Assembly: GCA_003135135.1 (NCBI GenBank)
Contig: PLDK01000029.1
Span: 84,713-120,903, forward strand
Source of the DNA: Deltaproteobacteria bacterium
GTDB lineage: Bacteria > Desulfobacterota > Binatia > Binatales > Binataceae
Direction: 5' to 3'
Length of the DNA stretch: 36,191 nucleotides
A model generated the notes under the pieces. The model was not told the origin of the DNA. It made no database searches and was given only the letters and a program-made list of their open reading frames with translations. The translations under genes were made by a program, and so were the position numbers. Below, in pieces: positions 2,554-27,766 of this stretch (positions within the stretch are counted from its first letter, which is position 1; each line of letters opens with the position of its first letter).

Positions 2554-2738
2554 ACTTCCCGTCTATAAAGAGGCGGGCATCGCCCTGTTAAAAAGGGGAG
2601 GGCGAAGAGGCGAAACCATTCGCCATCGGTGTCATCGCTGACACGCCGCTGTGCCGAACGAAAAACTTGGCGCCGATGGCGCGGCTCGACGCTGGCCTAC
2701 AACAGAGACATTGAGCCATTCACTCGAAAACCGGAGGC

Positions 2739-3677
2739 CTAACCGGCCGCCAGAATTTCAGAAGCTGAGGGTGCTTTCATTCGCTGAGGCGGCGCGGTTC
2801 TGTCGAAGAGTTGGCGTAGCCCATCTCGTCCAATCGCCGCATACATATATCTTTCGGCCGAGAGCATTGCGCGTTTGTTCAGCGCACGTGCCTCCTGGCT
2901 ACGAACTCGAATAAGTGGAACGTCGATCGTTGGTCCCAATTCCTGCTCCGGCTTTGCATAACAGTACAGCGCAGTATGCGAGCCCACAGGAAAATAGAGA
3001 TCCGAGCCGCCTAAGCCCAGTCCATGATTGATAACCACAGGGTAGTCGGACGTAACGAAGTATTCATATGGCGACCGGAGTATTACAGGGCGCTTGACGC
3101 CTATCGCATCTACGAAGCGCCGTGCGAATCGGCCGATATTCCGGAGCCAGTAATCTTTGGCCGATAACTGTTCAATGATTCTCTGGCTTGCGCTCTCCCA
3201 GAAATGTAGAACTTCGTCGTCTGGAGGCGTCACGCCAATTTCGCGTCTGAGGAGTTCCTTCATTTCTTCTAGCTTTACGCACGTTCGGACTTTGGCCGCC
3301 ATATCGGCGTCGAACCGGTAAAGATCGTCTCGAAACGCTGGGGTTCGGACCAATTGGAAGGCGAGAAACACGATCAGGGTTTCCGCTTCCGCGCGATCGA
3401 GCCGCACCCGTAATTGCTCTTTATTCAGCTTCTCTACGATGGGAAGAATCCAGGTATCGAGCGGTGCGAACACCTGGATTTCGATGGTATCGTTGAACTG
3501 GCCGGAAGGATCCTTAAACGAATAGAGATGCCCCTCCTTGGCGACGTTCGCAATGCTGGTAAGCACCGGTTGTTTGCCGCGCTGATACAGATAAATTTGT
3601 CCCCTTTTGCTCGGCCGACAGAAAAAGCGCAGATGCGCCTGCCTAGCGAGGAAGTGTTGTCCTTTCGGTCCGCTCAT
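2739..3677 (-). CDS. DUF4238 family protein
   Basis: A 312-residue protein with the DUF4238 signature. The N-terminal block GQHFLARQAHLRFFC followed by IYLYQRGKQP corresponds to the family's H-[Y/F]-x-x-x-x-x-L-R-x-F and L-Y-x-Y-x-[K/R] pattern. A helical middle and a C-terminal part containing SPYEYFVTSDYPVVI follow, also typical of the family. The biochemical function is unknown. DUF4238 genes are sporadically distributed and often sit in accessory DNA. This stretch has visibly lower GC and different codon use from the flanking genes, which fits horizontal acquisition. The gene stands alone on the minus strand, 97 bp downstream of the stop of an unrecognised secreted-protein gene on the same strand. 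The start is the ATG at 3675-3677. Confidence 0.75.
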   Translation of the reverse strand: MSGPKGQHFLARQAHLRFFCRPSKRGQIYLYQRGKQPVLTSIANVAKEGHLYSFKDPSGQFNDTIEIQVFAPLDTWILPIVEKLNKEQLRVRLDRAEAETLIVFLAFQLVRTPAFRDDLYRFDADMAAKVRTCVKLEEMKELLRREIGVTPPDDEVLHFWESASQRIIEQLSAKDYWLRNIGRFARRFVDAIGVKRPVILRSPYEYFVTSDYPVVINHGLGLGGSDLYFPVGSHTALYCYAKPEQELGPTIDVPLIRVRSQEARALNKRAMLSAERYMYAAIGRDGLRQLFDRTAPPQRMKAPSASEILAAG

Positions 3678-3774
3678 TTCGCACCGCCACCTGCAGCCCC
3701 GAGCACGAATGTCCCCGATCGGGTACTTAAGAGAAAGTGATTGGGATCAGCGCGCCGTCGGGCATGTACCTGGT

Positions 3775-4824
3775 TCAGGGCAGGCGTGCGCGCACGACGC
3801 AGTGGCCATCAGTCGAATCAAGCTTGCCCTTGGTCCATAGGCGGTCCCAATGTAGCAGACTAATATCCCGGTTAGGGTAGGGTGGTACTCGGACACATCG
3901 GCAGTTGGCATCTTTTAGCGGCACGTTCATCACCATATATTCGGTGACCACGGACTGTTCGAGCGCTTGGGCGGCGGTGAGGGGAACGTTTCCTCCTTTG
4001 CTTACGAGGTAACTGTCTTCGACTGAGTAGCCCAGGCCGGAAAAGGCTGGCCCGATCCCGTACAGATCATAGAGAACGTTGGCCCCCGTGGTGCTGGTAG
4101 TGGGTAGGAAGGGAGTGCCTGTAAATTGAAAGATGGTGGCGCCGGTATCGACAGCGTTTTGCAACACCAATGGGACCTGTGTGTTTTCCTGGTCGGAAAA
4201 ACCCTGAGAAGCACAGTACACCCGTTGGTCAACCGGATAGGATGAGTCGAGGTCAGGCGTGGGGCAGTCGGCGGGCGTGTATCCCATCAAGTCCGCCAGA
4301 TCCGAAGTTGCCATCGCGAATACATTCGGCCAGCTGGCCATTCTCGGCTGCACCTGGCTGGGGTCCGAGGGTTTGCAGCGCATTGCCACCAGATCGTAAG
4401 TGCTGGAACCGGGATCATCGCTGCCCACAAAATGCGCGTCGTCTATCGCCGGCAGTGCCGGCTGGTAGAGTTTGGTTGCGCTCATGAATGCGCGAGCCTG
4501 AACGAGTTTGCCCTGGTAGACTTTGTCCGTCCTTCCGATGTTGGTCACCGGGGCGGGTTTGTTGGTGAACAACACTCGCGTGAAATCGTCGTTAATGGCA
4601 AAGCCGGTAATGGGATCGGAGACCCGCGTGTTGTCGACCACCGTCGCGGGCGGCGGCGCTGCCTGCGCCTCGGCTGTGAAACCCGGACTGCAGGGTGTGG
4701 TACCAAGCGCAGCCGCGGCGATAAACGCAGCCAGCAGCGCCGTCGCCCGTCGTTCGCTTCCGGGGCGCCGCTGAGCGATTAGAGGCTTACAACCAGCGCT
4801 GATCTTCCCTTTTGCTGTCTTCAT
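3775..4824 (-). CDS. Secreted protein of unknown function, cysteine-containing
   Basis: I do not recognise this 349-residue protein. A long basic N-terminal region precedes a hydrophobic stretch (ALLAAFIAAAALG) and a likely signal-peptidase site near AEAQA at residues 52-56, so it is probably exported. The mature part holds about seven cysteines, including CKP, CPTPD, YCASQG and CRCVRV, and many Ser/Thr/Pro-rich stretches. The ATG at 4822-4824 is preceded by a strong purine-rich Shine-Dalgarno (AAAAGGGGGAAA). A good sigma-54 promoter match lies at 4858-4873, predicting a leader of about 23 nt. The gene is divergent from the glutathione S-transferase gene. An envelope or extracellular role is the most that can be inferred. 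Confidence 0.7.
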   Translation of the reverse strand: MKTAKGKISAGCKPLIAQRRPGSERRATALLAAFIAAAALGTTPCSPGFTAEAQAAPPPATVVDNTRVSDPITGFAINDDFTRVLFTNKPAPVTNIGRTDKVYQGKLVQARAFMSATKLYQPALPAIDDAHFVGSDDPGSSTYDLVAMRCKPSDPSQVQPRMASWPNVFAMATSDLADLMGYTPADCPTPDLDSSYPVDQRVYCASQGFSDQENTQVPLVLQNAVDTGATIFQFTGTPFLPTTSTTGANVLYDLYGIGPAFSGLGYSVEDSYLVSKGGNVPLTAAQALEQSVVTEYMVMNVPLKDANCRCVRVPPYPNRDISLLHWDRLWTKGKLDSTDGHCVVRARLP

Positions 4825-17192: not shown

Positions 17193-19112
17193 ATGCCCGA
17201 TGGAAATATGATCGACGCGCTGCCGCGCGACTTGTGGTGGTTTCGCAAGAACGTGCCATGCCTTGAAGCGTGCCCGGTCAAGACCGACGCCGGCCGCTAC
17301 GTTCAACTGGTCGCCGAAGGACGCCTGGCCGAAGCATATCGCGTTGCGCGATCGCCCAATCCGATCGCGTCCATATGCGGCCGCGCTTGCGGCGCGCCGT
17401 GCGAGGACGCGTGCCGCCGCGGCAAGATTGACGCGCCCGTGACGATTCGCGCGCTCAAGCGCTTTCTCACCGAACAATTCGGCCCCGAAGCACTCTCGGC
17501 CCGCGGAATCCGTGACATGATCGCCGGTCCATCCGGCGGCGGCAGCGTCACTCCCGGGCATCTCGATATTCTCGGCGCGCGGCCCGACGCCGGCGCGCCC
17601 AGGCGCAAAGTCGCAGTCGTCGGCGCGGGGCCGGCCGGGCTGGCATGCGCACACGATCTGGCCGTGACGGGTTACAACGTCACGGTTTTCGAGGCGATGC
17701 CGCATCCGGGCGGGATGCTTCGTTACGGAATTCCCGCCTACCGCCTTCCGCGCGACGTGATCGACTGCCAGGTCGGCGAGATCGAAGCGCTGGGTGTCGA
17801 GTTTCGCTACTCGACGCCGCTTCGACCCGGCTTCGGAGTTCAAGAACTCAAAGAGCAGGGCTATGAAGCTATCTTTCTCGCCGTTGGGGCGTCGCGCGGC
17901 CGCGCAGTGCCGATCGAGGGGGTCGATACCGACGGCGTGATCAAGGCGATCGACTACCTGCTCAATATCCATCGCGGCTTCCGCGTTCCGCTGGGCGGCA
18001 AGGTGGTCGTTATAGGCGGCGGCCTGGTCGCCATCGATGCGGCTCGAACCGCGGTTCGCACCCTCCTGCCCGGACTCGTCATGTCGCAGGAGGAAGAACA
18101 GAGCGTCGCGGCCGGCACGATGCGCGTCGCGCTCGATGCGGCGCGCGAGGCGGCGCGGCGCGGTGCGCTCGAAGTTACGGTCGCCAGTCTTGAGTCCGAG
18201 CCCGAGATGCCCGCGATGAAATCCGCGCAGGGCCGCGAGGAACTCGATATCGCGCGCGACGAGGGCGTCACTTTTCTCCCCGGTTGGGGCCCCAAGCGAA
18301 TCGTCAGCCGCGACGGCCACGCGGTCGGAATCGAATTAGTCAAATGCGTCAGGGTATTCGATGACGCGGGCCGCTTCCGGCCGCAATTTGACGAGAATGA
18401 TCGCCGTATCATTGACGCCGACGGCGTGATCCTCGCCATCGGGCAGGCGCCGGACCTGTCGTTTATCAAGCCCGAAGACGGAGTCACCATCACGCCCGCC
18501 GGAACGCTCAAGATCGACCCGGTCACTCTCGAGACCGGCATCGCCGGCATATTCGCAGGTGGCGATGCGGCCTTTCCCCCTTCCCTGCTGATCACCTGTG
18601 CACAGCACGGCAAGGTCGCCGCGCGCGGCATCGACGCCTATCTCCGCGGGATCCCGCTCGGCCAGCCGCGCATGCACGTCACCATCGAGGAACTGCCGAC
18701 CGACACCTACACGATGGTCGAACGTTACGAGCAGAAGCCTCGCGAGGTTCCGCTGGTTCCTCTCTCGCGCCGCACCGGAATCACCGAAGTCGAGTCCGTG
18801 TTAAGTCCGAGCGACGCGCGCGAGCAGGCCGAGCGATGCCTCTACTGCCATATCCATCCGATCTACAACGGGTCGGCATGCATTCTGTGCAATCGATGCG
18901 TGGACATTTGCCCGGAGCATTGCCTGCATTTCGCCCCCGCCGCCGAGATCGCCGATCAGGAGCGGGTTGCCGGCGTGATGACGGAGGCGCCGACGCGCAG
19001 CGCTTTTCTCTACGACGAGGCCAAATGCATCCGTTGCGGCCTGTGCGCGATCAGGTGCCCGACCTCGGCGATTACGATGGAACGCTTTCAGTTCGAAGAG
19101 ACGGCCGTCTGA
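17193..19112 (+). CDS. GltD-like FAD/NAD(P) oxidoreductase with C-terminal ferredoxin domain
   Basis: A 639-residue flavoprotein of the glutamate synthase small-subunit family. The N-terminal Fer4_20 domain carries VPCLEACPVKTDAGRY (about 22-37) and ICGRACGAPCEDACRRG (about 61-77), ligands for two [4Fe-4S] clusters. The FAD site is VVGAGPAGLACA near 143 and the NAD(P) site VVIGGGLVAIDAARTA near 274, with the closing FAD motif IFAGGDA near 455. The C-terminus adds a 2x[4Fe-4S] ferredoxin: CILCNRCVDICPEHC and CIRCGLCAIRCP. No signal peptide, so it is cytoplasmic. Encoded directly before the Rieske protein (stop/start overlap TGATG), it probably links NAD(P)H and ferredoxin-like centres to the quinone-reactive complex. 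Similar subunits accompany Rieske/cytochrome b complexes in anammox planctomycetes. It is unlikely to be real glutamate synthase, since no gltB is present. Confidence 0.88.
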   Translation: MPDGNMIDALPRDLWWFRKNVPCLEACPVKTDAGRYVQLVAEGRLAEAYRVARSPNPIASICGRACGAPCEDACRRGKIDAPVTIRALKRFLTEQFGPEALSARGIRDMIAGPSGGGSVTPGHLDILGARPDAGAPRRKVAVVGAGPAGLACAHDLAVTGYNVTVFEAMPHPGGMLRYGIPAYRLPRDVIDCQVGEIEALGVEFRYSTPLRPGFGVQELKEQGYEAIFLAVGASRGRAVPIEGVDTDGVIKAIDYLLNIHRGFRVPLGGKVVVIGGGLVAIDAARTAVRTLLPGLVMSQEEEQSVAAGTMRVALDAAREAARRGALEVTVASLESEPEMPAMKSAQGREELDIARDEGVTFLPGWGPKRIVSRDGHAVGIELVKCVRVFDDAGRFRPQFDENDRRIIDADGVILAIGQAPDLSFIKPEDGVTITPAGTLKIDPVTLETGIAGIFAGGDAAFPPSLLITCAQHGKVAARGIDAYLRGIPLGQPRMHVTIEELPTDTYTMVERYEQKPREVPLVPLSRRTGITEVESVLSPSDAREQAERCLYCHIHPIYNGSACILCNRCVDICPEHCLHFAPAAEIADQERVAGVMTEAPTRSAFLYDEAKCIRCGLCAIRCPTSAITMERFQFEETAV

Positions 19113-19570
19113 TGGACAGCGATCGGCGAAAAATTCTCCGCTTCATCGGCAAAGGCTCGGTGTTGGCCGCATTCCTGGGCCAGATCGGCGCTGCCGGCAG
19201 GGCATTCTATCCCAACGTGCTCTACGAGCCGCCGAGCCGTTTCAAACTCAAGCGCCCCAACGATTACCCCGACGGCTACACCTTTGTCGAAGCGCACCGG
19301 CTGTTTGTGATTCGTCAAAAGGAGGCGTTCCACGTCATTTCCGCCATCTGCACGCATCTCGGATGCACCGTGCAGTGGAAAGACACCGAGTTCGATTGTC
19401 CCTGCCACGGCAGCCGCTTTCTTCCCGACGGCACGGTGATTTCGGGCCCTGCGCCACGTCCTCTCGATTGGTTTGCGACGACCGTTTCGCCCGATGGGTT
19501 CCTCGAAGTTGACAGCGCAAGCGACGTTGCGCGCGACTTCAGGCTGCTCGTCGGAAAAGGCAAGGCTTGA
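19112..19570 (+). CDS. Rieske iron-sulfur protein of a cytochrome bc-type complex
   Basis: A 152-residue Rieske protein. It transfers electrons from quinol at the cytochrome b site to a c-type cytochrome. An N-terminal basic stretch and hydrophobic segment (GSVLAAFLGQIGAAG, about 15-29) anchor it in the membrane. The cluster-binding domain shows CTHLGC (Cys80, His82, Cys85) and CPCHGS (Cys96, Cys98, His99): Cys80/96 and His82/99 bind the [2Fe-2S] cluster and Cys85-Cys98 form the disulfide. Its start ATG 19112 overlaps the stop of the FAD oxidoreductase gene, and cytochrome b starts 3 nt after its stop, so the three are translationally coupled. Confidence 0.95.
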   Translation: MDSDRRKILRFIGKGSVLAAFLGQIGAAGRAFYPNVLYEPPSRFKLKRPNDYPDGYTFVEAHRLFVIRQKEAFHVISAICTHLGCTVQWKDTEFDCPCHGSRFLPDGTVISGPAPRPLDWFATTVSPDGFLEVDSASDVARDFRLLVGKGKA

Positions 19571-19573
19571 TCC

Positions 19574-20875
19574 GTGGGCGATAAGATCAAGGCGCTCTGG
19601 CGCAAGACTTTGTGGGCGTGGTCGCCTGAAAGCGAGCGCGAATCGTCGGAATCGATCGTCAAGAACTTCTGGCTCCACTGGTTCCCGGCTAAAGTCGCGC
19701 GCGCCAGCATGGACTGGAACTACTCCTTCTGGCTCGGCACCGCGTCGGCATCGCTGCTGATGATCCTGACCGTCACCGGCGTGATGCTGATGTTCTATTA
19801 CGTGCCGTCCACCGAGCGCGCCTACGGAAGCATCAAGGACCTGGAGTACGCCGTCAGCTTCGGCCGCCTGCTCAGAAATCAGCATCGATGGGCGGCGGAG
19901 GGGATGGTTGCGGTTGTTTACATCCACATGGCGCGGGTGTTCTTCACCGGCGCCTACCGCGGCACCCGGGCGATCAACTGGGTGGTCGGGGTAATCCTTT
20001 TCCTCGCGACTTTGCTTCTGTCCTTCACCGGTTACCTGCTGCCGTGGGACCAGCTCGCATTCTGGGCGATCACCGTGGGCACCAGCATCGCGAAACAGGC
20101 GCCTGTTGTCGGCCCGACGATTCAATTCATTCTTCTTGGCGGCCATGAAATCGGACAGCAGACCTTGCTGCGTTTCTACGTGCTGCACGTTTTCTTCCTG
20201 CCGGTCTTCGTGTTGGTGCTGTTCGCTTATCACATGTGGCGCGTGCGCAAGGACGGCGGTCTGGCGGCGATCGAGGGCGTCCGCCATGAGCGCGCGATGG
20301 CGCCGAAGGCGACTCCAAAGACCAAAAGTTACTCGCTGTTCGGAATTACGCCGGGCACCTCCGTGCAGGTGATGAGTTCGACCGGTCTCGAAGAGTCCGA
20401 TCAGGTCTTCTCGTCGCCGAATATGTCGCGGCGAATCGCGCTGGTCTTCCTGGTCGTGTTCAACATCACGCTGCTGGCCGCGTTGCTGTTCAATGCGCCG
20501 CTGGAGGGTCTCGCCAATCCATCGGTGACGCCCAATCCGGCGAAAGCGCCATGGTATTTCGTCTGGCTGCAGGAGTTGGTCGCTTCAACGACTGTTCGCA
20601 TGGGAGGGTTTACCGTCAGCGGCGCGTTACTGGGCGGAATACTGCTGCCCGGATTTCTCCTCGCCGTGCTTTCGCTATGGCCGTTCATCGATCGTTCTTC
20701 ACTTCGCACCGAAGGGCGATGGCTCGCACCCGAGCGCAGGCGGCAGAACGTAACCTTCGCGCTGGCGACGCTCGCGATCATCGTGCTGATCGTGGTCGGG
20801 GTTTACTTACGCGGTCCCTACTGGCGGATCTACTGGCCCGGCCAGCCGCGCCCCGAGATGCCGCGCCTTTATTGA
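19574..20875 (+). CDS. Cytochrome b, fused b6/subunit IV type
   Basis: A 433-residue integral membrane cytochrome b that holds two b hemes and the quinol sites. The four ligands are His104 and His118 (13 residues apart) and His205 and His220 (14 residues apart); the 14-residue spacing is the b6-type pattern, not the mitochondrial one. The N-terminal half is b6-like. The C-terminal half corresponds to subunit IV and carries NPAKAPWYFVWLQEL near 320, where the Glu of PEWY is replaced by Ala as in many 'green' bc complexes. Start is GTG. It forms the core of the complex with the Rieske protein and the tetraheme cytochrome that starts 1 nt after its stop codon. Confidence 0.95.
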   Translation: MGDKIKALWRKTLWAWSPESERESSESIVKNFWLHWFPAKVARASMDWNYSFWLGTASASLLMILTVTGVMLMFYYVPSTERAYGSIKDLEYAVSFGRLLRNQHRWAAEGMVAVVYIHMARVFFTGAYRGTRAINWVVGVILFLATLLLSFTGYLLPWDQLAFWAITVGTSIAKQAPVVGPTIQFILLGGHEIGQQTLLRFYVLHVFFLPVFVLVLFAYHMWRVRKDGGLAAIEGVRHERAMAPKATPKTKSYSLFGITPGTSVQVMSSTGLEESDQVFSSPNMSRRIALVFLVVFNITLLAALLFNAPLEGLANPSVTPNPAKAPWYFVWLQELVASTTVRMGGFTVSGALLGGILLPGFLLAVLSLWPFIDRSSLRTEGRWLAPERRRQNVTFALATLAIIVLIVVGVYLRGPYWRIYWPGQPRPEMPRLY

Positions 20876-20876
20876 A

Positions 20877-21830
20877 ATGGCTGAAATCGGCAACAAGAAC
20901 GAATCGTTCGAGGCGAAGGACTTCGGCTGGCTGGTCGCGATGTCGGTCCTGTTCTTTGTGCTCGTCGTGGTTGGCTTCTGGTTTGAGTTCAGCACCGATT
21001 GGGGAGCTTATCAGCGGGAGTTTCCTCAACTGCTCAGCCACTACGGTAAAGTCGAAGACGCGCGCGACTTCCGCGAGGGCATCAAACAGATCTGGATACC
21101 CAAAATCGGCGTCACCGATCGCTGCATCACGTGCCATCTCGGCTACGAATGGTCTTCGGTTCTTCCGGCCACGATCGCCGAGCCGCTGAAACCGCATCCG
21201 ATGAACGATTGGCTCGCCAAGCATGAATTCGAGCGCTTCGGATGCACGCCATGCCACGGCGGCGACGGATCGGCAACGACTCTCGCCGGATCTCATCAGG
21301 GCGGAAAGGGATGGGAGGATCCCATGCTCTCGCGCGCACTGGCAGAGCGAAACGGGCTCACGATGAACGAGATGATGCAGATGCGATGCAATTTTTGCCA
21401 TCGCCATGATGCCGCGACGCCGGGGATGGAAGAGATCAATCTCGCCAAACACCTCATCATCAAGAAAAAGTGCCTGATCTGCCATGCCGTCGAAGGGCGC
21501 GGCGGCAACACCGGGCCCGAGCTGACCTACGAGGGCGACAAAAACCCCGAGTTGCTGAGCTTCGCGCACGTGAACGGCGAACGCACGATGTTCAATTGGA
21601 ACGTGCAGCATCTGACGCAGGCGAGCGTAGTCTCTCCGAACACGCAGATGCCCGATTTCAACATGAAGCCCGAGGAATCGAGAGCGCTGACGCTCCTGCT
21701 GCTCAGCTGGCGGCGGCTGCCGTATCCCCCGGAATACATCCCGGATCCGGAAGTGGCCGCAGCGGCGATGCAACCGTCGCCTGCCTCAAGCGCGACTCCG
21801 GCTCCGGCCGCGACGCCTATCGCGCGTTGA
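20877..21830 (+). CDS. Membrane-anchored tetraheme cytochrome c subunit
   Basis: A 317-residue cytochrome with one N-terminal membrane segment (about 18-39) and no cleavage site, so it is anchored to the periplasmic face. Four CxxCH heme motifs are visible: CITCH (Cys83), CTPCH, CNFCH and CLICH. The C-terminus has a Met-bearing segment (NTQMPDF) that can act as axial ligand, and a Pro/Ala-rich tail. It takes the place of cytochrome c1 or f in this complex and extends the electron path by several hemes. Multiheme c subunits in Rieske/cytochrome b complexes are known from deltaproteobacteria and anammox bacteria. The 1-nt gap from cytochrome b indicates obligate co-expression. Confidence 0.92.
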   Translation: MAEIGNKNESFEAKDFGWLVAMSVLFFVLVVVGFWFEFSTDWGAYQREFPQLLSHYGKVEDARDFREGIKQIWIPKIGVTDRCITCHLGYEWSSVLPATIAEPLKPHPMNDWLAKHEFERFGCTPCHGGDGSATTLAGSHQGGKGWEDPMLSRALAERNGLTMNEMMQMRCNFCHRHDAATPGMEEINLAKHLIIKKKCLICHAVEGRGGNTGPELTYEGDKNPELLSFAHVNGERTMFNWNVQHLTQASVVSPNTQMPDFNMKPEESRALTLLLLSWRRLPYPPEYIPDPEVAAAAMQPSPASSATPAPAATPIAR

Positions 21831-21862
21831 GCATTCCGAGTTAAATATCGTTTGGTGAATCG

Positions 21863-22288
21863 ATGAAGCTGAAAGTCTTGGCGTCAATCTTTGCGCTAGG
21901 CACCGCGCTGTCCGTCGCGCAGCCCGCGCTGTCTGCGGGCAATGACGTGAGCGACGGGCACCGCTATTTCATTCGTTACTGCGCATCATGCCATGGCCTG
22001 GACGGTCTCGGAAACGGTCCGGTGGCCAAGAGCCTGTCCACGCCGCCGACAAGTCTCCGCAAGCTCGGCGACAAATATGGCGTGCCGCTGCCGGCGCATC
22101 GCATAGCCGAACTGATAGACGGTCGAGATACACCCAGGGCGCATGGGACTCGCGAGATGCCTGTATGGGGAGAGCGCCTTTACGAGCTTGGCCAGGGTGA
22201 AAGGGGCGAATACGGGATCGGGGAAGTGATCGGCAAAATTATCGCCTACCTCAACACGATTCAGGATCGCCGAATGGCGGAGCGATAA
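21863..22288 (+). CDS. Monoheme c-type cytochrome
   Basis: A periplasmic class I cytochrome c of 141 residues. A signal peptide ends near ALSA-GN (residue 25). The heme motif is YCASCHGLDGLGNGP near 40 and the sixth-ligand Met is in GTREMPVWG near 97. A C-terminal helix IIAYLNTIQ follows. It is the last clear electron-transport gene of the operon, 32 nt after the tetraheme gene. The layout around the Met (RxMPxxG) also occurs in the separate cytochrome at 30026-30490, which resembles it (YCAECHGLTGKGDGP and RLQMPFLG), so the two are probably paralogues and alternative electron carriers. Confidence 0.9.
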   Translation: MKLKVLASIFALGTALSVAQPALSAGNDVSDGHRYFIRYCASCHGLDGLGNGPVAKSLSTPPTSLRKLGDKYGVPLPAHRIAELIDGRDTPRAHGTREMPVWGERLYELGQGERGEYGIGEVIGKIIAYLNTIQDRRMAER

Positions 22289-22292
22289 CGCT

Positions 22293-22337
22293 GCGCACGC
22301 CTGGTCTCAGCAAATGGATTTCGTTGTGGGCGTGTGC
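22293..22337 (+). terminator. Long-loop hairpin between cytochrome c and ion-channel genes
   Basis: GCGCACGCC at 22293-22301 pairs with GGCGTGTGC at 22329-22337 (9 bp, one G-T wobble) around a 27-nt loop. No T-run follows. It could attenuate read-through from the electron-transport operon into the channel gene. No separate promoter is recognisable for the channel. Confidence 0.25.
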
Positions 22338-22352
22338 TAGATAGCCCCGGAA

Positions 22353-23438
22353 GTGCCTCATCACCGGTTCAGCCGTATCGCGCCGCCCGTCCTGCTCGTG
22401 GCCATCGCGACCGCCTGCGTTGGTTTTGCGCTAGGCACGAAAGCTCGCGCGGCCGCTCTAAATCCGACAACCGATCAGACCCTGCTGGAACCGCCGGGGA
22501 GTCCTGGTGCGCCAGTGCCGGTGAAGGTCGGTTTGTACATCACCAACCTCGGCGACATCGACGAAGTGCGCGAGCGGGTCGAGCTGAATGGCTATTTGAT
22601 CGTCAGCTGGAAAGATCCCCGGCTCGCCGCCGCGCCCGCCACCAGTAATGGCAGCAACCATTGGCAACGCTATCGCGAAGGGCAAATCTGGATGCCCTCG
22701 CTGGAACTCGCCAACGCAGCGACCCGTCGCGAGCGCTTGTCTTTCAGCATCCTGGCGAACGCGCAGGGTTCGGTCCGCTATGTCGAGCGCTTCGACGCAC
22801 AGGTCTCCTGCGATTTTCTCTTGAGACAGTTTCCCTTCGACAAGCAGAACCTGCAGGTCATCGTGCAACCATCTCTTACCGACAGAACTCAGCTCGAGCT
22901 GAGCGTGGACCTCGGCTCTTCCGGCGTCGGCGAAGACACCTGGGTGGAGTTGCCGGAATGGAAAATCCGAGGCCTGGCAGCGACCGCGGAGCCGCTCAGG
23001 ATTCGAAATGTGGTGGGCAATATCCCGCAGATCAGGTTCGATTTGAAAGTGCGACGCAGGCTGGCCTTCTATCTGTGGAAAGTGTTTCTGCCAATTCTGA
23101 TTATGGTCCTGGTATCGTGGTGTGTGTTCTGGGTCGATCTGTCGCAGTTCGATTGGCAGGCGAAGATTGCGGTGATGACCATGCTGACTCTGGTCGCGTT
23201 CTCATTTGCGATCGAAAGAAATCTGCCGCGGATCGGCTACCTGACTTTCTTCGATGGGGTATTCCTGGCGAGCTTTGTCTCTATGTTTCTAGTAATGATC
23301 GAGATAACGGTCATTCATGTGCTGCACTTGCGCAAGAGGGAAAGCGCCGCGGCCGCTATTCACTCCGCTTCGCGATGGGTATTTCCGCTCGTCTACTCTG
23401 CCACCATTGCGCTGATGGTCCAGATCTTTCTCAGGTGA
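22353..23438 (+). CDS. Prokaryotic pentameric ligand-gated ion channel (GLIC/ELIC-like)
   Basis: A 361-residue homologue of the Cys-loop receptor family. A signal peptide (to about residue 33) precedes an extracellular beta-sandwich domain. The signature Pro-loop CDFLLRQFPFDKQNLQV near 150 has only one of the two cysteines of animal receptors, as usual in bacteria. Four membrane helices follow: M1 (KVFLPILIMVLVSWCVFW), M2 (IAVMTMLTLVAFSFAIE), M3 (YLTFFDGVFLASFVSMFLV) and M4 (VFPLVYSATIALMVQIFL). M2-M3 ERNLPRIGYLT matches GLIC ETNLPKTPYMT. At the cytoplasmic end of M2 the cation-selectivity Glu is Gln269, followed by Ala and Lys271, so ion selectivity is open. Start is GTG with a weak Shine-Dalgarno. 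It lies 64 nt after the cytochrome operon and may be co-transcribed. Confidence 0.88.
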   Translation: MPHHRFSRIAPPVLLVAIATACVGFALGTKARAAALNPTTDQTLLEPPGSPGAPVPVKVGLYITNLGDIDEVRERVELNGYLIVSWKDPRLAAAPATSNGSNHWQRYREGQIWMPSLELANAATRRERLSFSILANAQGSVRYVERFDAQVSCDFLLRQFPFDKQNLQVIVQPSLTDRTQLELSVDLGSSGVGEDTWVELPEWKIRGLAATAEPLRIRNVVGNIPQIRFDLKVRRRLAFYLWKVFLPILIMVLVSWCVFWVDLSQFDWQAKIAVMTMLTLVAFSFAIERNLPRIGYLTFFDGVFLASFVSMFLVMIEITVIHVLHLRKRESAAAAIHSASRWVFPLVYSATIALMVQIFLR

Positions 23439-23460
23439 AGCAGCTCTTTAAGGAGTTTCA

Positions 23461-25119
23461 TCATTCGCGATGTGCGCAGGGTGCACGATGCAGCAGGGGT
23501 TCGAGCGCATCGTCGATTTCCGTGACAAGGCATTCGCGCGGTCGGGTGGTATCGATGCGCAGGCGGTTCTGCGCCGCAATCTCGCCAAGCGGCTCGAACT
23601 CGGCGCGCTGCCGCTGGTACACCTCTGGCGTAGCGTCTGAGACTTCACCGTGTATCGATGCGCGCCGCTGCAGCCGGCGTATCGCTTCGTCTTCACTGAC
23701 GACGCATTCGACGAACAGCAGTGGCACACCGTGGCGCGCCGCTATCGCCAGGGCGAGCTGCCGATCGGCAGACGCCTTGAACGTCGCGTCGAGAATTGCT
23801 CCGCGGCCCTCGCTCAGGAAGCTCTCCGCTTCGCCGAGCATCGCGTCATAGGTGATTCTCGTAAACATTCCGGAATATATGTCGGTTCCGTAATCCGCGC
23901 GGACGTGCTCGCGGGCGGAGACCGCCGCCAGGCGCTTGCGGACGCGGTCCGAGTTGATGATTTCGAAGCCTTTGCGATGCTGAAGCATGCGGGCGACGGT
24001 CGATTTGCCCGTGCCTGAAAGCCCGCACACTACGATCAGAGCCGGCGATGCGCCACGGGCATAGCGCCACGCGAGCTCGAAGTAGCTACGTGCGAGTTGG
24101 CTGGCGCTCTCGTTTTGCGCCGCGCCAACCTCGTGCTCGAGGCTTCTCAGGCTCTCGACCTTGCCGCGTACGCATGCGCGATAGCACTTGTAGAACGGGA
24201 CGAACACCGCAAGCTGTTCGTCGCCGGTGATCTCCGCATAGGCCTCGACCAACTCTTCGGCGAGTCCGGGCGCGCCGAGCCGCTCGAGGTCCATCGCCAG
24301 GAATGCGATCTCCGAAGCGACGTCGCCGTAGCGCAACTGCTCACTGAACTCGACGCAATCGATCACATCGATTTCGCTTTCGTTGCCAGCAAGACAGATG
24401 TGCTCGGCGCGCAAATCGCCGTGGCCTTCGCGCACGCGGCCCTTGCGCGCCCGCTCATTCAATGGCCGCCAATGAGCGGTGATAAAGGCGCGGCAAAAGG
24501 CGTCGATCGCGGTGAATTGGTCTTTGCGAAGCGTGCGACCGATGAAATCCTGGTTCTGCGCGATGTCCCCGATCACGCCGCGCCAGATTGCCGCGGCTGA
24601 ACCGTAGGTCCATCCACGATTCGACGGCGCGCTCGCATGAAACTGCGCCATACGCGCCGCAATAGCGCGAATCGTGCGGCTATCCACCTGGCCCGCGGCC
24701 AGCAGCCGATCGAGCATGCGGTCTTCGGGCAGCCGGCGCATCTTGACCGCGTACTCGACGGCTTCGGGATGCTCGACGCGAACCTCGGGTCCGAGCACGA
24801 AGCAGTCCGCACGCTTAAAAATCGCGAACACGCCGAGGTACACATGCGGCGAAAGACGCGCGTTCAGACGCACCTCCTCGATGCAGTAGTGGAACCGGCG
24901 CGCGAGCCTGGAACAATCCAGGAATGCAAAATGAACCGGCTTCTTGACCTTGAAAACCGTTTCTCCGGCGACAAAGACGTAAGATATGTGCGTCTGCTTG
25001 AGTTCGACGCGAGCGGGCGAGTCCGGGTAGAACTCCGGCCGCATCATTGCCTCGACCAGCGTCGAGACGCCGCCGGCGCGATGTCCGTCAGGCCTCGGCG
25101 TACCGCATGGTTCCATCAT
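23461..25119 (-). CDS. Bifunctional APH-fold phosphotransferase / P-loop kinase
   Basis: A two-domain protein of 552 residues. The N-terminal part is an aminoglycoside-phosphotransferase/kinase-like fold with KVKKPVHFAFLD near 45 and the catalytic-loop block GHGDLRAEH with His233 and Asp235 (HxDxxxxN with N replaced by H) plus IDVIDCVEF. From about residue 360 comes a gluconate-kinase-like P-loop domain: GLSGTGKS at 366-373 and INSDRVRKRLA near 390. The same fusion is Rv2004c of the mycobacterial DosR dormancy regulon; the substrate is unknown there too. ATG 25119 has GGGTGA just upstream; an in-frame ATG at 25335 would overlap the USP-CBS gene. It follows the USP-CBS gene by 41 nt as the second gene of an operon with a sigma-54 promoter, and converges with the ion-channel gene 22 nt away. 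Confidence 0.88.
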   Translation of the reverse strand: MMEPCGTPRPDGHRAGGVSTLVEAMMRPEFYPDSPARVELKQTHISYVFVAGETVFKVKKPVHFAFLDCSRLARRFHYCIEEVRLNARLSPHVYLGVFAIFKRADCFVLGPEVRVEHPEAVEYAVKMRRLPEDRMLDRLLAAGQVDSRTIRAIAARMAQFHASAPSNRGWTYGSAAAIWRGVIGDIAQNQDFIGRTLRKDQFTAIDAFCRAFITAHWRPLNERARKGRVREGHGDLRAEHICLAGNESEIDVIDCVEFSEQLRYGDVASEIAFLAMDLERLGAPGLAEELVEAYAEITGDEQLAVFVPFYKCYRACVRGKVESLRSLEHEVGAAQNESASQLARSYFELAWRYARGASPALIVVCGLSGTGKSTVARMLQHRKGFEIINSDRVRKRLAAVSAREHVRADYGTDIYSGMFTRITYDAMLGEAESFLSEGRGAILDATFKASADRQLALAIAARHGVPLLFVECVVSEDEAIRRLQRRASIHGEVSDATPEVYQRQRAEFEPLGEIAAQNRLRIDTTRPRECLVTEIDDALEPLLHRAPCAHRE

Positions 25120-25160
25120 TTCACCCGGCTCCGCGCATCGCTCCCGGCTGCCCGCCGTGC

Positions 25161-25967
25161 TCAGACTCGCGTGGTCAGCGCCTCGAGCACGTCGCCCGTG
25201 GTTATCACGCCGGCGAGCTTGCCGTTTTCCAGCACTGGCAGCCCTCCGATCTTCCGGTCGCGCAGCAAGCGCGCAGCCTCTCGAATATCGGTCGACGGCG
25301 TTACAGTTATCAGCGTTTCGCTCATCGCCTTGCACGCCTCGGTTTGATCCAAAAAGCCGGTGTGCTGGCGGATGTCGCGGTCGGTCACAATTCCGACCGG
25401 GACGCCGTCATTGAGGATCGGCACGCATCGAAAGCCTCCCGCGTGCATCTTGGTTGCGATGGAGGCGAGCTTCTCGTGCGGAGTCGCGGTGACCGGATTT
25501 TTCGTCATCCAGGTGCCGACCAAGTCGCTTTGCGCCGGCGTGCAGCGCACGGTCACCACCGGGCAGATGGATTCGCGCAAGACGACTTCGGCGATGCTGC
25601 CAAGGAAAAAGCGCTTGAAGCCACGGCGCCCGTGCGTGGCCATTACGATGACGTCGGCGCTGGTTTTCTTTTCGGCGTTTAAGATGGCGCCGGCCGGCTC
25701 GCCGGTATGGGTCAGAACTTCGTACTTGAGCCCGTCCAGGCGCTTGTGTGCGATCTCGAGCAGCTTGGCGCGGGCAGTCTCTTCCTGCCCCTTATAGAGG
25801 TCAACATAGATCGGCATTCCGGTCGGCGCGAGGATCATCGGAACCACGTGCAAGACAAACACAGTGCCGTCGCTCTCGCGGGCGAAATCCGCGGCAGTAT
25901 CGAGCGCCTGCATCGAGTTATCGTCGAAATCCACCGGGCAAAGAATCCTGCGGAATGGGTATGCCAT
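25161..25967 (-). CDS. Universal stress protein fused to a CBS-domain pair
   Basis: A 268-residue fusion. Residues 1-145 are a universal stress protein (YPFRRILCPVDFDDNSMQAL at the start) with the ATP-binding loop ATHGRRGFKRFFLGS (G-x9-G-S pattern; the first Gly of the family motif is Ala). Residues 150-268 form a Bateman module of two CBS domains (VGTWMTKNPVTATPHEKL and IREAARLLRDRKIGGLPVL), which bind adenine nucleotides. It probably senses ATP/AMP energy charge. The CBS pair is clearly paralogous to the free CBS protein at 26787-27179. ATG 25967 was chosen because AAGGAGC lies 8 nt upstream; an in-frame ATG at 26072 would start upstream of the promoter. The promoter match at 26016-26031 is the best -24 box in the window. 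Confidence 0.92.
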   Translation of the reverse strand: MAYPFRRILCPVDFDDNSMQALDTAADFARESDGTVFVLHVVPMILAPTGMPIYVDLYKGQEETARAKLLEIAHKRLDGLKYEVLTHTGEPAGAILNAEKKTSADVIVMATHGRRGFKRFFLGSIAEVVLRESICPVVTVRCTPAQSDLVGTWMTKNPVTATPHEKLASIATKMHAGGFRCVPILNDGVPVGIVTDRDIRQHTGFLDQTEACKAMSETLITVTPSTDIREAARLLRDRKIGGLPVLENGKLAGVITTGDVLEALTTRV

Positions 25968-27217: not shown

Positions 27218-27766
27218 ATGAAGCAGACCACTGGTAACCCACCCCGCAAGGGACTCACCCGCAGCCTCGACCGCCGCGGCACGCGCTCCGACATGAGCCC
27301 GCCCGTCGCACAGAAGCAGCGCGCACCCGAAGATCCCTCCGTTTGCGACGTCTGTGGGAGCATTTATACGGCCAAAACCTGGCGGCGCAATCGGGCGCTC
27401 CCCGCCAAACTGATCAACGCGGCGGCATGGACCATCTGCCCGGCGTGCAAGCAAGCGAAAAGTGGCGAATACTTCGGGCGCGTGCTGGTGCGCGGCTCGA
27501 ACGCAAGCTCAAACCTGGAGGCGATCCGCGCGCGGATCGCCAACGTCGAACGGCGCGCCGAATTCACTCAACCCGAGCGGCGAATTGTCTCCAGCAAATG
27601 GGACGGCGTGACGCTCGAGGTGCTGACCACGTCGCAAAAGCTGGCGCATCGTATCGCCCGCGAACTGCAGAAAGCTTTCGGCGGACGCGCGCGTTACACC
27701 TGGTCTGACCAGGACGGCGCCCTCACGGCCGTCTGGGAGGCGCAAACGCGTGCGCCGCGCGCCTGA
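27218..27766 (+). CDS. BCAM0308-family zinc-ribbon protein
   Basis: A 182-residue protein of the BCAM0308 family, named after a gene in the low-oxygen-activated (lxa) locus of Burkholderia cenocepacia. It has a zinc ribbon like that of NMD3: CDVC at Cys43/Cys46 followed by GSIYTAKTWRRNRAL, and CPAC at Cys74/Cys77. After EYFGRVLVRG comes the conserved second domain with RIVSSKWDGVTLEVLTTSQKLAHRIARELQKAFGG and a final TAVW strand. The function is unknown; the NMD3-like finger suggests ribosome or RNA contact. It is the second gene of the CBS operon. Its stop TGA abuts the stop of the convergent sigma-54 activator gene (junction TGATCA), leaving no room for a terminator. Confidence 0.82.
   Translation: MKQTTGNPPRKGLTRSLDRRGTRSDMSPPVAQKQRAPEDPSVCDVCGSIYTAKTWRRNRALPAKLINAAAWTICPACKQAKSGEYFGRVLVRGSNASSNLEAIRARIANVERRAEFTQPERRIVSSKWDGVTLEVLTTSQKLAHRIARELQKAFGGRARYTWSDQDGALTAVWEAQTRAPRA

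Follow-up and report, generated by a model that had tools for sequence, protein, structure and literature searches.

A stretch of 36,191 nucleotides (the window) from a Candidatus Binatus genome of the family Binataceae carries, directly after a set of cytochrome genes, a gene resembling those of pentameric ligand-gated ion channels (pLGICs). The locus raises two questions: which ions would pass the pore, and is the channel coupled to respiration? The debate on how sequence determines cation or anion selectivity in pentameric receptor channels draws mainly on mutated animal channels, with a small number from bacteria. A preliminary description of the window held that the selectivity glutamate of GLIC, the proton-gated channel of Gloeobacter violaceus, is replaced in the encoded protein, that the pore could be weakly selective or anion-conducting, and that the location of the gene suggests gating by the redox or energetic state.

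The gene encodes a genuine pLGIC with the GLIC-type fold of the Pro-loop receptors (features in Table 1), as the preliminary description had it. In Pfam searches, Neur_chan_LBD matched residues 45–236 above its cut-off (E = 1.5e-22), and Neur_chan_memb scored slightly below its own (27.5 bits against 28.1, E = 4.6e-6). GLIC chains came top in searches of the PDB, both with the window protein (E ~1.5e-46) and with a profile of alignment A2 (E ~4e-49). The family match is more than chance, considering these E-values, a second pLGIC in the same genome (G000:C12) and the presence of pLGICs in 26 of 41 Binataceae genomes, the window's own included; 14 control genomes gave no match to the LBD family. 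The NCBIfam model LGIC_1 (NF033918) yielded 150.9 bits (E = 5e-44), below its curated cut-off of 500 bits, and the protein is on this score a relative of that subfamily and not a member.

The AlphaFold2 monomer computed from 18 aligned rows (mean pLDDT 79.9, pTM 0.68) consists of ten strands and the four membrane helices that had been announced; a previous model, built on 8 rows, had reached a mean pLDDT of only 68.9. GLIC ranked first with Foldseek (E = 2.5e-26, 28% identity over 315 columns) and with VIA-align (Z 25.7, rmsd 4.2, 306 residues aligned), with animal GABA-A and glycine receptors less than 1 Z unit from the GLIC score in the latter. Pfam, the model and the fold matches all support a ligand-binding β domain followed by a four-helix membrane domain. 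The most conserved residues of the Pro-loop receptor superfamily are listed in Table 1 of Jaiteh 2016 (PMC4795631). The F/Y-P-x-D motif of the β6-β7 loop is found as FPFD, with its Pro and Asp kept in all ten rows of the clade described below. The β9 Trp, pre-M1 Arg, M1 Pro and M2-M3 Pro are W203, R235, P247 and P292, facing W160, R192, P204 and P247 of GLIC, and are likewise kept in 10/10 clade rows. The cysteine pair of Cys-loop receptors is absent, since Cys153 (Ser in G005, the other Candidatus Binatus genome with the gene) stands opposite a Leu at position 167.

Table 1. Features of the pLGIC gene and its surroundings, in window coordinates
Feature	Position	Strand	Basis or remark
FAD/Fe-S oxidoreductase (PRK12771-like NAD(P)/Fe-S flavoprotein)	17193-19112	+	domain search
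Rieske protein	19109-19570	+	domain search
Cytochrome b	19574-20875	+	above Pfam cut-offs
c-type cytochromes	20877-21830 and 21863-22288	+	domain search
Whole upstream cytochrome operon	17193..22288	+	commoner than the pLGIC at this site
Approximate insert	22310..23464	+	junction alignment; in window and G005, absent from the empty site of G006
pLGIC gene	22353..23438	+	361-codon open frame with GTG start, 361 aa
Probable signal peptide, residues 1-34	22353..22454	+	hydrophobic core, ARAA end; sequence judged by eye
β-sandwich domain, extracellular (periplasmic), residues 45-236	22485..23060	+	Pfam LBD 45-236; strands in model
Pro-loop FPFD, F160-P-F-D163	22830..22841	+	sequence alignment
M1 helix, residues 237-260, with Pro247 (GLIC P204 equivalent)	23061..23132	+	AlphaFold2 model; alignment
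M2 pore helix, residues 266-290	23148..23222	+	AlphaFold2 model
Asp267, -2' (GLIC E222 position)	23151..23153	+	alignments
Lys271, 2', clade-defining basic residue	23163..23165	+	alignments
Glu288 (19') and Arg289 (20')	23214..23219	+	alignments
M3 helix, residues 296-326	23238..23330	+	AlphaFold2 model
M4 helix, residues 330-360	23340..23432	+	AlphaFold2 model
Convergent gene, AAA_33 and weak APH-like kinase matches	23461..25335	-	Pfam

The reading of the pore depends on the register of M2. HMMER places E222, A223, N224, V225 and T226 of GLIC opposite D267, W268, Q269, A270 and K271, respectively. Asp267 is -2', Trp268 -1', Gln269 0' and Lys271 2' (in GLIC, E222 is -2', N224 0' and T226 2'). 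M2 of the Binataceae relatives aligns without gap, and Pro292 taken as 23' gives Leu278 as 9' and K271 as 2'. Numbering K271 as 0' was rejected, as this would require a deletion of two residues within the gap-free M2, whereas the two-residue length difference to GLIC sits in the M1-M2 loop of the HMMER alignment. E222, or E-2', is described as a key part of the GLIC selectivity filter (PMC5760087). The replacement of this Glu by Gln or Lys had been proposed and does not stand: E222 aligns with Asp267, and Gln269 and Lys271 occupy 0' and 2'. In the Trp-Gln-Ala-Lys reading, the letters Gln269, Ala270 and Lys271 were correct and the positions were two residues out of register. The alignment with GLIC, chosen beforehand as the check on a lost acidic ring, puts an Asp rather than a Glu at the pore mouth, and the loss has to be abandoned. 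Asp267 at -2' provides the acidic ring at -1' or -2' that serves as criterion for cation channels. The A-R/K motif before M2, a mark of anion-selective animal pLGICs (PMC4795631), is missing, with Trp268-Gln269 at -1'/0'. As judged from these alignments, the acidic ring is retained at D-2', and the basic rings K2' and R20' are extra.

The lysine at 2' defines a clade. It was found in 10 of 81 aligned rows, all ten of which also have D-2', W-1' and R20'; in the 71 other rows, W-1' occurs in none, R20' in two and D-2' in three. Most relatives carry an uncharged residue at 2'; among the rows that do not belong to the clade, four have Arg there and 12 an acid, Asp or Glu. The full pattern, F-3' D-2' W-1' x x K2' ... 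R20' (FDWxxK), is common to the ten rows, which form one clade with a support of 97/88 in a tree of 75 of the 81 rows (L110, L114, L123, L164, L165 and L135 were removed as fragments or badly aligning). Its members belong to two Candidatus Binatus genomes, those of the window and G005, and to eight genomes of the Edaphobacter family (Acidobacteriaceae). The Edaphobacter-family versions are under purifying selection, with dN/dS of 0.13–0.15 in four pairs, of which three share one sequence and one has a saturated dS. From these ratios and the support of the clade, it is concluded that the FDWxxK motif is old and kept, a compact pore variant common to two phyla. The Edaphobacter-family proteins (Edaphobacter lichenicola and others) show 35–39% identity to the window protein in alignment A2 (38–42% over the matched stretch) and the same D-2'/K2'/R20'. 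They differ in having Thr, Ala or Val instead of Glu at 19', Tyr or Phe instead of H322, and a Pro in M1 at the position of Ser255. A recent transfer from a known acidobacterium was considered; in view of this low identity and of the long branches, no donor is named.

Within the Binataceae, the K2' form is restricted to the window and G005, whose proteins are 88% identical, that is, to 2 of 41 genomes and 2 of 30 rows. Residue 2' in these 30 rows, window pair included, is Gln (19), Thr (7), Lys (2), Leu (1) or Val (1), and Arg at 20' is also confined to the pair. One near-full-length copy without locus, G037:C32, was entered as L118, and short pieces were left out. The other Binataceae pLGICs, including G000:C12, share 33–43% identity with the window protein in near-full-length matches, the same domain layout and a gap-free M2 of equal length. 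The LBD family was matched in 10 of 297 genomes in a phylum-wide sample of the host phylum. Of 398 sampled Edaphobacter-family genomes, 10 gave a match: eight with FDWxxK, one with two copies without K2' and one weakly. The phylum-wide sample of 396 on the Edaphobacter side yielded 12 matches; the top four were FDWxxK genomes counted before, and the remaining eight lack K2'. A scan of genome contigs returned 52 loci, three of them from Acidobacteriaceae with F-D-W-x-x-K. One scan of viral contigs with alignment A2, which reaches A2 relatives only, gave 39 pattern matches and no relative.

Other pore variants were encountered in these rows. Three pLGICs from Myxococcota MAGs (L097, L098, L101) have Arg at both 0' and 2' (R-S-R-I-S); the tree places none of them in the FDWxxK clade. 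In a Terriglobales MAG (L078, JASHXK010000551.1), the second gene of a tandem pLGIC pair (~2701-3860) encodes Arg at 2' and 6', where its partner has Thr at both. In-frame stops or pieces were seen in several Binataceae pLGIC genes (G022:C192, L006; G040:C155, L026; fragments in G036 and G037), consistent with frequent loss or with errors of assembly.

In pLGICs, the residues at 2', 6', 9', 13', 16' and 20' form the pore-facing stripe. Together with the mouth residue, the window protein presents D-2', K2', M6', L9', A13', F16' and R20', with Thr at 6' in the other nine clade rows. GLIC, the best PDB match by both sequence and fold, differs in having Thr where the window protein has Lys at 2', in lacking the Trp at -1' and in an M1-M2 loop shorter by two residues. 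ELIC and DeCLIC belong to the same superfamily, and their gates Leu9' and Phe16' correspond to Leu278 and Phe285; ELIC is described as having an acidic ring at -1', and DeCLIC as having two such rings at its mouth, where the window protein has Trp at -1' and Lys at 2' (PMC12637682, PMC9897478).

By homology, the protein would assemble from five subunits, the model itself being a monomer, into a homopentameric channel of the inner membrane, with periplasmic β-sandwich domains and a pore lined by M2 through which ions are presumed to flow. The D-2' ring would lie at the cytoplasmic mouth, the K2' ring one helical turn above it, a hydrophobic gate at L9'/F16' and an arginine ring, R20', at the outer end. 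D-2' and K2' (i, i+4) would be able to pair. Per pentamer, the rings would bring five negative against ten positive charges, without counting E288 (19') of the window pair. K2' and R20' would speak against a preference for cations over anions, and the basic rings may make the channel anion-permeable or weakly selective, not cation-selective like GLIC. This reading, a channel of the GLIC fold that combines D-2', K2' and R20' rings with such permeability, is regarded as the most likely one, at about even odds. The weak or anion selectivity suggested in the preliminary description thereby survives, for a different reason: K2' and R20', and not a lost Glu. It is possible, although the odds are somewhat against it, that the FDWxxK/R20' clade is a natural lineage of anion-conducting prokaryotic pLGICs that took its own route, with a K2' ring above a kept acidic -2' ring in place of the A-R/K motif of animal channels. 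According to Jaiteh 2016 (PMC4795631), this region is not enough for a prediction of prokaryotic selectivity, and all known cation-selective members are remarked to have an acidic filter (PMC9897478); for these two reasons, the selectivity given here is an inference.

A GLIC-like cation channel, in which the D-2' ring sets the selectivity and K2' has lost its proton, snorkels out of the pore or has its charge cancelled by D-2', is considered rather unlikely. The alignment of D267 with GLIC E222 and the invariance of D-2' in the clade are in its favor, and Glu288 at 19', which aligns with GLIC E243, is a counterpoint to the anion reading. Yet K2' and R20' are equally invariant (10/10 rows), the eight rows from the other phylum have Thr, Ala or Val at 19', and the net charge over -2', 2' and 20' is positive.

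The second question concerns the cytochrome genes. The gene indeed follows, on the same strand, genes for Rieske protein, cytochrome b and cytochrome c, starting 64 bases past the cytochrome c stop codon. The upstream genes 17193-20875 resemble a bc-type complex, with a cytochrome b weakly like the ExtP/ExtQ and b6 models; it scores below the cut-offs of the NCBIfam b6 and ExtP models. A long match to this cytochrome b (at least 74% identity) was found in 11 of 41 Binataceae genomes; G036 and G037 have cytochrome b fragments whose identity, at most 60–69%, lies below the level of this count. The operon is followed by a pLGIC in two of these 11 genomes (window and G005) and not in eight (G001, G002, G006, G017, G024, G025, G026 and G039, the last with ~2.8 kb visible); the eleventh, G003, is undecidable with ~276 bases beyond its cytochrome c. 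Conservation of the pLGIC with the operon across relatives, as expected of an operon component, is thus not observed. By tblastn of the window's genes, the pLGIC and no operon gene was found at all eight Edaphobacter-family loci (the G266 contig measuring 3.4 kb).

The site itself, between cytochrome c and the convergent kinase gene, varies among Candidatus Binatus genomes: it holds the pLGIC (window, G005), a single small gene related to the NMD3-like gene at 27218 (G001, L065) or nothing (G006). In G006, the same genes stand on both sides with ~30 bases between them, forming an empty site. By junction alignment, the insert of ~1.15 kb comprises the single gene with ~43 bases before it and 26 after. 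With nothing at the site in G006 and a different gene there in G001, a lineage-specific insertion of this single gene would be the simplest account, simpler than the alternative of a loss. No promoter- or terminator-like consensus was found in 21700-23600, and expression by read-through from the cytochrome genes is therefore possible.

That the channel belongs to the respiratory operon and is gated by the redox or energetic state is very improbable. Position, strand and possible read-through are what can be said for it; the single-gene insert carrying ~43 bases of its own 5' flank stands against it. A functional unit with the cytochromes was rejected on the eight operons of 11 without pLGIC, the empty site of G006 and the Edaphobacter-family loci. 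With adjacency so patchy, and at none of the eight Edaphobacter-family loci, the respiratory coupling read from the location is not supported. A chance insertion seems to have put the gene next to those of respiration.

The selection on the gene was estimated from the two Candidatus Binatus copies. Window and G005 pLGIC differ by dN 0.058 and dS 0.097 (dN/dS 0.60; Fisher test against a ratio of 1, p = 0.058); among 360 codons, the first, second and third positions show 20, 23 and 27 differences, respectively. The same comparison of neighboring genes gave dN/dS of 0.09–0.25 for seven and 0.33 for one. Between the window and L033 (16225-17304), all eight other genes measured have a higher dS (0.171–0.243) than the pLGIC (0.097), and seven of the eight have a lower dN than its 0.058. 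We read these values as pointing to weak constraint on the gene in Binatus, decay being unproven. In a further reading, the Binatus copy is a recent acquisition, carried as a passenger with selection slight or absent and heading to loss, irrespective of the Edaphobacter-family versions; this is compatible with either reading of selectivity and is judged fairly unlikely. The ratio of 0.60, the even spread over codon positions, the occurrence of the K2' form in 2/41 family genomes, the empty site in G006 and a poor start site, with no clear Shine-Dalgarno sequence at the usual spacing from the GTG, are consistent with a passenger. However, both copies are open over their full length, M2 differs at one of 28 residues (M275T, 6'), and the second pLGIC of the window's genome is also loose (dN/dS 0.43 against G001).

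Acid pH is a weak first candidate for the stimulus. The proton sensor of GLIC is E35 (PMC5760087). Its equivalent, E74, is Glu in 10/10 clade rows and is no special mark of the clade, because Glu is found there in 42 of 81 rows overall. The GLIC residues E35 (E74), E222 (D267), E243 (E288), H277 (H322), R192 (R235) and P120/D122 (P161/D163) have kept equivalents in the window protein, whereas H235 (11') is replaced by Leu and E26 by Asn. The carboxylate site of GLIC includes R77 and E181 (PMC7336382). GLIC-like dicarboxylate binding was rejected for the window protein, where these are E118 and I224, and where R146, the equivalent of R105, is Gln in G005.

The Q/T2'-type pLGICs lie just downstream of fumC (class II fumarase), on the same strand, at 14 of 30 Binataceae loci (14 genomes, 7 genera), unlike the window gene. 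The set consists of G000:C12 ~60967-63400 (L002, L029, L051) and 13 further loci of the family. Crystals of GLIC with bound fumarate have been described (PMC7336382). At all five fumC loci compared, further neighboring ORFs also matched (3–8 of 13 query ORFs), and old gene order may explain the adjacency.

In the open-licence literature, no paper was found that pairs a ligand-gated ion channel with Edaphobacter, none on Binatota or Binataceae that mentions ligand-gated, and none, judged by title, on prokaryotic anion-selective pLGICs. What is new here is the lysine-ring pore variant, the pLGIC family itself being already known. The idea of respiratory coupling can be set aside. By keeping the acidic filter position together with an invariant lysine ring one turn above, the clade offers a natural test of which ring rules. 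If its members conduct anions, they would represent a separate evolutionary route to anion selectivity.
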